Positions 5,009-7,262 of a stretch of 64,000 bases of DNA are shown here, in pieces (positions within the stretch are counted from its first letter, which is position 1; every line of letters begins with the position of its first letter). The translations under genes were made by a program, and so were the position numbers. Source of the DNA: Phycisphaerales bacterium Planc_01 (GTDB taxonomy: Bacteria; Planctomycetota; Phycisphaerae; Sedimentisphaerales; Anaerobacaceae); the NCBI GenBank assembly GCA_001603075.1, contig LVBB01000016.1, forward strand, positions 456,829 to 520,828, given 5' to 3'. Below the pieces are notes generated by a model. That model was not told where the DNA came from, searched no databases, and saw only the letters and a program-made list of their open reading frames with translations.

Positions 5009-5527
5009 TCACTTCTTGGCCTGCTTGCGGTATTGGTTGAGGATCTGGACCATTTTCTTGGGCGTCAGATCGCCGTGAATCTTGTCGTCGATCATCACGA
5101 CCGGGGCCAGGCCGCAGGCGCCGAGACACCGCGCCGGCTGGAGAGAGAACAACCCGTCCTCCGTCACCTGCCCCACGTCGATCTTCAGTTCGTCCTTGAG
5201 CGTCTGGAGAATCTGTCCGGCCCCGCGCACGTAGCAGGCCGTCCCGAGGCAGATCGAGATCACATGCTGGCCGGGAGGCGTCAGATTGAAGTAGTGATAG
5301 AATGTCGCGACACCCCAGATGTGCGCCGTGGGAATCCCCATCGCCTCGGCGACTTCATCCATCACCGGAACCGGCAGATAGCCGTAAAGCTCCTGCGCCC
5401 TGTGCAAGACGGCGATCAGGAAGGAGTCGGGATGCTCGTCCTGCCGCGTCTGCGCGATGAATTCCTTCAACTGTGCGAGTTTCTGTTCGTCCGGTGCGAC
5501 GGCGTCGTTCGCCTGGGTCGTTGCCAT
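5009..5527 (-). CDS. hydC: NAD-linked hydrogenase subunit, NuoE-type [2Fe-2S] protein
   Basis: 172 residues, NuoE/HndA family. A helical N-terminal region (YGYLPVPVMDEVAEAMGIP) is followed by a thioredoxin-like fold binding a [2Fe-2S] cluster through CLGTACYVRG and ARCLGACGLAP. It relays electrons between the NuoF-type flavoprotein and the hydrogenase in trimeric, often electron-bifurcating, enzymes. I choose the ATG at 5527, preceded by GAGG nine bases upstream, over a TTG at 5545. A 175-bp inverted-repeat element separates it from hydG; without it the spacing would be about 25 bp, so the two genes were probably adjacent originally. Confidence 0.92.
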   Translation of the reverse strand: MATTQANDAVAPDEQKLAQLKEFIAQTRQDEHPDSFLIAVLHRAQELYGYLPVPVMDEVAEAMGIPTAHIWGVATFYHYFNLTPPGQHVISICLGTACYVRGAGQILQTLKDELKIDVGQVTEDGLFSLQPARCLGACGLAPVVMIDDKIHGDLTPKKMVQILNQYRKQAKK

Positions 5528-5551: not shown

Positions 5552-5746
5552 TGTCAGAAATTAGGGTTCTGAAAAATGGAGGTTAGGCCTGCTTATGGGA
5601 GAAAAAATCGGTGTCTTGATTTTTTCTCCCATAACCGTAACCCCGCAGATATAGTTTGTTGTCGTAATTGCTCAAGGAAATCAGAAGAACGATTTCCTTG
5701 AGCAATGTAGGCCTAACCTCCATTTTGCAGAACTCCTGTCAGAAAT
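5552..5746. mobile_element. MITE-like inverted-repeat element with 10-bp flanking direct repeats
   Basis: Terminal arms at 5566-5590 and 5709-5733 are inverted copies of one another (24 of 25 positions); including a one-base offset the similarity runs to the flanks. Inside lie two perfect hairpins, each with an 8-base loop: a 17-bp stem (5593-5609 with 5618-5634) and a 16-bp stem (5667-5682 with 5691-5706). TGTCAGAAAT occurs on both sides (5552-5561 and 5737-5746), as expected for a target duplication. The right-hand copy contains the hydG stop codon. No transposase is encoded, so any movement would be in trans. It could instead be a structured RNA element of the operon. Confidence 0.7.
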
Positions 5747-7262
5747 ACAGGTCTCTGTCGCCGGCCTGGGTCTTCTCGTAGTAGCGCATGAACTGTTCGA
5801 AGATTTCCGGCATCTTCTCTTTGACTTGCTCGATCTCCCGCTCAATCACCTTTTCGCCGACCGCGATCGTTTCGGGGCTGCCGAAATCATCGAGCCATTC
5901 CCGGAACGTGATGACGGCGTTGAGCTTGCAGAACTGCCCTTCCTTGCCGCTTCGCAACAATCCCATGATCTTCTGCCCGGTTCGCCCGCAGCGATACCCG
6001 GCGGTGCAGAAGGACGTGATGCAGCCGGCCTCGGCCAGCTCCCGGACCACGGTATCGAGCGAGCGGGTGTCGCCCAGGAGGAACTGCTGACGATCGCCCT
6101 GCTGGTCGCCGTCGGCCAAATCGGCGTAGCCGCCGATCCCGATCCGGCTGGATGCGTCGGTCTGGGTGCAGCCCAACGACAGGACCTCCCGCCGCAATTG
6201 GGCGTCTTCCCGTGCGGTGAGGATCATGCCGGTGTACGGAACCGCCAGCCGAATCACCGTGACGAGCTTCTTGAATTCCTCGTCACCGACGGCGTATCCC
6301 GGGTTCTGCGTCAGCGGCGTGTTGTGCGCCGGTTCGATTCGCGGGAACGAGATCGTGTGTGGCCCGATGCCGAACTTCGTCTCCAGCTCGATAGCGTGAT
6401 AGAGCAGCGCCATCACCTCGAACCGCCCGTCGTACAGCCCGAGCAGCGGACCGATCCCGACGTCGTCGATGCCGGCCTCCATCGCGCGATGCATGGCATA
6501 GAGCCGCCAGAGATAGTTGCCCTTTATGGTGTTCTGCGGATGCAGCCGCTCGTAGGTCGGTCGGTGATATGTCTCCTGGAACACCTGGAACGTGCCGATG
6601 CCGACCTCGTTGAGCATGGCCAGCTCTTCGATCGACATCGGGGCCGCATTGACGTTGCATCGTCGGATCTGGCCCCAGCCGCGTCGGGTCTTGACCTTCA
6701 CATCCGCAATGGTCTGAAGCGTCGAGGCGATGTAGTGGACATCGGTGGCCGGGTGCTCGCCGTAGACAACGATCAGCCGTTTGTGGCCGATCTGCCCGGC
6801 CAGAACCTCGATCTCCCGCCGGACCTCGCCGAGGGTCAGCACGCGACGTTGCTCCGAGCAGTTGCTGCTGCGGAAGCCGCAGTACGCGCAGTTATTGACG
6901 CACAGATTGCCCAGATACAGCGGGGCAAACGTCACGATGCGATTGTCGTAGACCTTGATCTTGACGGCATGCGCCGCCTGCCGCATCTCGGCCAGCAGCT
7001 CGGGATCGTCCACGTGGATCAGGCAGGCCGTCTCCTCCGGCGTCAGCGTCTCGATGGCCAGCGACTTCTGCAGGATGTCTCTGACCCGCTTCGGATCGGG
7101 ATTCCTATTGGCATTCAGAGCCCGCTCGATGGCCTCGGCGTCGATGAAGCATCGCCCGTCGTCGAGATACTTCTCGATCTGCTCCGGCTTGATCCGATCT
7201 CGGATCCAATCGGCCACGCCGGCTCTCGTACGCTCACACTGGTTAGATGCCACGGCCGTCAC
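5739..7262 (-). CDS. hydG: [FeFe] hydrogenase maturase HydG (radical SAM tyrosine lyase)
   Basis: 507 residues, close to the usual HydG length. The radical-SAM motif CVNNCAYCGFRS lies at about residues 122-133, followed by a ThiH-like barrel. Near the C-terminus SFCTAGYRCGRTG and a later Cys (EGQFCKL) supply the second iron-sulfur cluster that makes CO and cyanide ligands from tyrosine. The start is GTG, preceded by a G-rich Shine-Dalgarno (AAGGGGGG). It follows hydA by 10 bp. Its stop codon lies within one of the direct repeats flanking the inserted element. Confidence 0.95.
   Translation of the reverse strand: MTAVASNQCERTRAGVADWIRDRIKPEQIEKYLDDGRCFIDAEAIERALNANRNPDPKRVRDILQKSLAIETLTPEETACLIHVDDPELLAEMRQAAHAVKIKVYDNRIVTFAPLYLGNLCVNNCAYCGFRSSNCSEQRRVLTLGEVRREIEVLAGQIGHKRLIVVYGEHPATDVHYIASTLQTIADVKVKTRRGWGQIRRCNVNAAPMSIEELAMLNEVGIGTFQVFQETYHRPTYERLHPQNTIKGNYLWRLYAMHRAMEAGIDDVGIGPLLGLYDGRFEVMALLYHAIELETKFGIGPHTISFPRIEPAHNTPLTQNPGYAVGDEEFKKLVTVIRLAVPYTGMILTAREDAQLRREVLSLGCTQTDASSRIGIGGYADLADGDQQGDRQQFLLGDTRSLDTVVRELAEAGCITSFCTAGYRCGRTGQKIMGLLRSGKEGQFCKLNAVITFREWLDDFGSPETIAVGEKVIEREIEQVKEKMPEIFEQFMRYYEKTQAGDRDLYF

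Follow-up and report, generated by a model that had tools for sequence, protein, structure and literature searches.

A probable MITE family with three covarying stems in one order of Phycisphaerae, inserted between two hydrogenase genes

The junction between hydG and a NuoE/HoxE-like gene in the window (the whole 64,000-nucleotide stretch of DNA analysed) is occupied by a strongly palindromic segment, which raises the question of whether it is a mobile element that has landed between two hydrogenase genes or a structured RNA element that belongs to them. Its features are listed in Table 1. The terminal arms are 25 nt long and 96% complementary (24 matches, one mismatch), and the stems of the two hairpins that they enclose (17 bp, 5593–5609/5618–5634; 16 bp, 5667–5682/5691–5706) are both 100% complementary; recomputation thus reproduced the initial annotation, which had described arms with 24 matches around two perfect hairpins with 8-base loops. 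The predicted RNA fold of the element has a free energy of −104 kcal/mol (z = −12.5), a stability reached by none of 200 shuffled sequences, and the fold as DNA gives z = −13.7. There is no open reading frame of at least 80 aa within the element, in agreement with its annotation as non-coding. A scan for terminator-like or promoter-like sites on the element found none, and a search of Rfam gave no match at the gathering score, the best scores being far under the cut-offs.

Table 1. Features of the element and of the adjoining genes (window coordinates)
Feature	Position	Strand	Basis
Whole MITE-like non-coding element, 175 bp	5562..5736	.	Fold and arms; further copies; empty sites elsewhere
Left terminal inverted repeat, GTTCTGAAAAATGGAGGTTAGGCCT	5566..5590	+	Arm pairing; kept in family alignment
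Right terminal inverted repeat	5709..5733	-	Arm pairing; family alignment
Internal hairpin A, perfect 17-bp stem, 8-nt loop	5593..5634	.	Pairing and covariation
Variable unpaired spacer separating hairpins A and B	5635..5666	.	Pairing and family alignment
Internal hairpin B, perfect 16-bp stem, 8-nt loop	5667..5706	.	Pairing and covariation
Left target-site duplication copy, TGTCAGAAAT (core 9 bp, GTCAGAAAT, at 5553-5561)	5552..5561	.	Single copy in the G002 empty site
Right target-site duplication copy, TGTCAGAAAT (includes the hydG stop codon)	5737..5746	.	
hydG, [FeFe]-hydrogenase maturase, upstream gene	5739..7262	-	TIGR03955, 429 bits, above cut-off
NuoE/HoxE-like gene, HydC-type subunit (hydC of the initial annotation), downstream gene, ATG at 5527	5009..5527	-	NF005722 (NuoE), above cut-off

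Both flanking genes are intact around the insertion. The top match of the NuoE/HoxE-like gene (hoxE below) is NF005747, under that model's cut-off. The hydG stop codon is a TGA on the minus strand (5741–5739). It is separated from the hoxE start codon by 211 nt, and removal of 185 nt (the element plus one duplication copy) brings the two to within 26 nt, matching the spacing of about 25 bp that had been proposed for the uninterrupted junction. The element sits just upstream of the hoxE ribosome-binding region. The minus strand between 3920 and 13713 of the window carries an operon-like cluster of hydE, hoxE, hydG, a group A6 [FeFe] hydrogenase and a NuoF-like subunit, with a Rex regulator further upstream.

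Sister genomes contain both the filled and the empty form of this junction. The site is filled in the window's genome (G000) and in G001, and is empty in G002, G003 and G005. In G002 it reads CAAATCTCT-CTCAAAAAT-ACAGG, where the window has CAAATCTCT-TGTCAGAAAT-element-TGTCAGAAAT-ACAGG. HydG identity to the window's genome falls from 95% in G001 through 93% in G002 (partial) and 90% in G003 to 80% in G005; given this order and the three empty sites, the simplest reading is that the copy would have been gained after the split from G002. Two other copies of the window's genome likewise have empty orthologous sites: the L002 site is unoccupied in G001 and G002, and that of L004 is unoccupied in G002 and G003, so that filled and empty alleles are known for three loci. 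Copy L003 is common to the window's genome and G001. At the L003 site, G002 (locus L323, contig C534) retains just an arm stub, GGACTTCTGCAAAA, the remnant of a lost copy. The initial annotation had proposed a search for empty sites and had named two outcomes that would speak against a mobile element: a cis-acting RNA structure conserved at this site, or a single-copy element with no empty alleles. Neither was found, as the element is multi-copy and the junction is empty in three sister genomes. Compensatory changes in its stems are spread over copies at many unrelated sites and hence belong to the element, not to the hyd operon.

With the element as query, the window's genome yields four copies that are nearly full-length, a fifth that has diverged more and a miniature, all at unrelated loci; the proposed BLAST check for further copies thus recovered several in this genome and many in relatives. 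Within the GTDB family, copies were found in 23 of 89 genomes by BLAST and in 24 of 89 by a covariance model. Sampling 397 genomes of the class added just two positive genomes from beyond the family, both in other families of the same order, which we take to be Sedimentisphaerales, and the covariance model detected no copies in the sampled genomes of other orders. Viral contigs, searched with one pattern, and plasmids gave no match to the element. Copy number can be high: about 60 copies are estimated from 117 arms in G041. Arms and end types are kept across copies, and a subfamily in G075 has the same architecture with very different arm sequence.

Decayed and altered copies are also present, and truncated copies retain either side of the element. 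In one-armed copies of G041 (L162, L163, L165) and G079 (L172–L175), an arm or part of a hairpin abuts unrelated sequence, and some one-armed copies in these two genomes lie directly before the ribosome-binding site of a gene. Two miniatures of about 35–43 bp, L018 (1505–1547) and L168 (168–202), consist of arm sequence only, without the internal hairpins, and L168 is flanked by a 7-bp repeat. At the other extreme, L133 of G041 is 225 bp long (167–391) and within its spacer lies a foreign GTCATTGCGAG...CTCGCAATGAC-type repeat; L137, L156 and L167 are of similar length.

The copies are flanked by direct repeats more often than expected from controls in which flanks were re-paired. Among 91 copies, the repeat score is at least 8 in 40% (1.6% of controls) and at least 7 in 54% (6% of controls), and about half of the copies show no clear duplication. 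Duplication length varies between about 7 and 14 bp, with ATAATAAATTCAAT, TTATTTTCTGTAA, TAAATGTTCA and TTCATAA as examples. In aligned copies, the most frequent spacing between the duplication and a conserved TTCTGC is 5 nt at both ends; for the window copy and its G001 orthologue this means a core duplication of 9 bp, GTCAGAAAT. The duplication of 10 bp annotated earlier is present on both sides as TGTCAGAAAT, with its core narrowed by one base; the first T of TGTCAGAAAT would then be the final base of the element's right end. In four copies (L100, L135, L022 and L116) the direct repeat continues into the terminal bases of the element, and the target beside the duplication matches the element end by about 5 bases, through chance or target homology.

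Insertion sites are also non-uniform with respect to genes. Among gene starts preceded by a Shine–Dalgarno-like motif in the scanned flanks, 39 of 46 lie 15–44 nt from the TTCTGC anchor. At 14 operon-like low-GC sites the mean relative position is 0.26, start-ward of uniform (Wilcoxon p 0.005, KS p 0.03; values that are indicative only because the sites were hand-picked). The analysis was confined to these two sets because a simple gene caller is unreliable in GC-rich genomes, where it produces shadow ORFs. Copies tend to lie just 5′ of Shine–Dalgarno sites, in a target zone that is AT-rich; targeting is not proven by this pattern, since selection against gene hits contributes. End type and gene direction follow no consistent rule across copies. 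Copies near ribosome-binding sites could form part of a 5′ untranslated region and change gene expression.

The most conspicuous property of the family is the covariation of its three stems, which was analysed over 57 pairs in 43 diverse copies. The paired state is kept in 96% of cells, and 30 of the 57 pairs have changed on both sides. Double changes occupy 183 cells, as against 46 in shuffles and 24–34 when the partners are slid, although the rows are related and these counts do not represent independent events. Mismatches read on the A-first strand are G-U in 74 cells (33 columns) and A-C in 52 cells (31 columns). Selection on one RNA strand should favour G-U, and the near-equality of the two classes indicates that no single strand is clearly selected; the pattern suggests that a palindrome is maintained at the DNA level more than one functional RNA strand. 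In some G041 copies, including L132, L134 and L136, the interior is inverted relative to the end types, as could arise through template switching or through recombination of one arm with the other. Over 166 positions, the orthologous copies of G000 and G001 show 8 differences (4.8%), with one compensatory change from A-T to G-C, whereas four-fold sites of the neighbouring genes have diverged by 20% (hydG), 11% (hoxE) and 13% (hydE), so that some constraint on the element is possible. The two loops differ in composition across the family, with pyrimidines prevailing in loop A and purines in loop B. Their complementarity within copies is weakly above that of shuffles (reached by 8 of 500), a lead that would be consistent with a kissing contact or with the relic of an ancestral palindrome. 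The loops of L248 and L251 in G075 are perfectly complementary, TCTTGGTTC and GAACCAAGA.

Two explanations of this covariation differ in whether the fold itself is selected. In the mutational one, which would be added to the MITE reading to account for the covariation only, template switching between inverted arms corrects the stems and occasionally flips the interiors. The wobble pairs without strand bias and the few copies with inverted hairpins both argue for it, and such a process has been described at inverted repeats and hairpins (PMC8794818; PMC8604942); the low divergence of the G000 and G001 copies relative to four-fold sites suggests that constraint acts as well, and we give this account slightly less than an even chance. 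Alternatively, the folded three-stem form, as single-stranded DNA or RNA, could itself be the substrate for mobility, with covariation arising from selection on the fold and not on a sequence bound by a transposase. The machinery would then recognise the three-stem fold and not the end sequence, arms and hairpins would co-evolve freely, and insertion would be targeted 5′ of Shine–Dalgarno sites. The extent of pairing and of two-sided change, the persistence of the architecture in the G075 subfamily despite its different arms, and the variable duplication length are all as such a substrate predicts. The lack of a clearly selected strand and the retention of either side in truncated copies are not, the target duplications point to double-strand cuts made with a stagger, and the two miniatures hint that the hairpins may be dispensable; a folded substrate is accordingly considered improbable. 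A retroelement origin through target-primed insertion, raised by the variable duplications together with truncation, was rejected because truncation occurs on either side.

The remaining explanations concern what the structure does at the hydrogenase junction and how it moves. A cis-regulatory RNA of the hyd operon, attenuating, stabilising or processing the hydG–hoxE transcript, would fit the very stable fold and the presence of the structure at the junction in two species, where it has diverged less than four-fold sites and acquired a compensated pair. Its absence from the junction in three sister genomes, the occurrence of copies beside many unrelated genes with both hairpin orders, and the lack of an Rfam family or terminator-like site make this explanation very unlikely. 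Still less credible is a REP/REPIN-type palindrome moved by a Y1 (RAYT) transposase. Such repeats are also multi-copy intergenic palindromes with hairpins, but target duplications and 25-bp terminal repeats disfavour this class, and the conserved GTAG/CGTC tag is absent, the flank of hairpin B being GTAG in the window and ATAG or ATAT elsewhere.

We infer that the feature is very likely one copy of a multi-copy family of non-autonomous DNA transposable elements (MITEs) found in one order of Phycisphaerae. It is under 500 bp and non-coding, with terminal inverted repeats, dispersed copies, a target-site duplication, and filled and empty alleles, and the earlier description as MITE-like is borne out. 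Conserved ends, the AT-rich target and the decayed copies also count in favour of a MITE. On the other side, duplication length varies, unlike the fixed stagger of many DDE transposases; about half of the copies lack a clear duplication; strong covariation of internal hairpins is not needed by an ordinary cut-and-paste MITE; and no autonomous partner turned up in searches of a few draft genomes with two Pfam transposase families and with the arms. The transposase families were PF01609, searched in four genomes, and PF05598, searched in five, and neither led to an element with matching ends. No long element with matching ends was present in larger stretches around 20 G041 arms, and a listing of the G075 arm pattern yielded no autonomous partner.

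In the mechanism that we propose for the MITE, a DDE-type transposase acting in trans would recognise ends of about 30 bp, cut the target with a stagger and paste the element, and repair would create the duplication. The perfect hairpins may be kept because the transposition complex or the host requires folded or palindromic DNA, or because template switching during replication re-copies one arm from the other. Within the hyd mRNA, the element is predicted to fold into three stems.

The family is apparently undescribed, with no match in Rfam, plasmids, viruses or the literature searched, and in uncultured Phycisphaerae it is still active or was so recently. At the window locus the element has inserted cleanly between neighbouring hydrogenase genes of a single operon-like cluster, and sister genomes supply both the filled and the empty allele. 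Strong, strand-neutral covariation in mobile DNA cautions against reading compensatory changes as a sign of a functional RNA, and the many copies of this family allow correction by template switching to be compared with selection.

The element belongs to a known kind, within which it forms a new family. The closest known systems include Chunjie, a MITE of Geobacter uraniireducens. QMITE2 of Coxiella burnetii is the nearest described element in its size, the length of its ends, its variable duplications and its fold, as judged from descriptions and not from sequences (PMC5896051; PMC10969869). QMITE2 is 150–190 bp long, with inverted ends of 23–29 bp, direct repeats of 7–11 nt that are unique to each copy, a very stable transcript fold, and full and small versions; its linkage is conserved between strains, with one recorded inversion (PMC5896051; PMC10969869). 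QMITE2 has a GTAG REP and is mainly located in 3′ untranslated and intergenic regions, whereas the planctomycete family has no conserved GTAG tag, contains two internal hairpins and has a tendency to sit just upstream of gene starts. ERIC/IRU, Correia (NEMIS) and RUP elements are likewise small non-autonomous repeats of about 105–155 bp that are often intergenic, and the folded transcripts of ERIC and NEMIS influence the stability or processing of mRNA (PMC2229807). By description, RUP inserts at TA, in contrast to the flanking repeats of about 7–14 bp seen here. These elements belong to other hosts, and the planctomycete family has three covarying stems.
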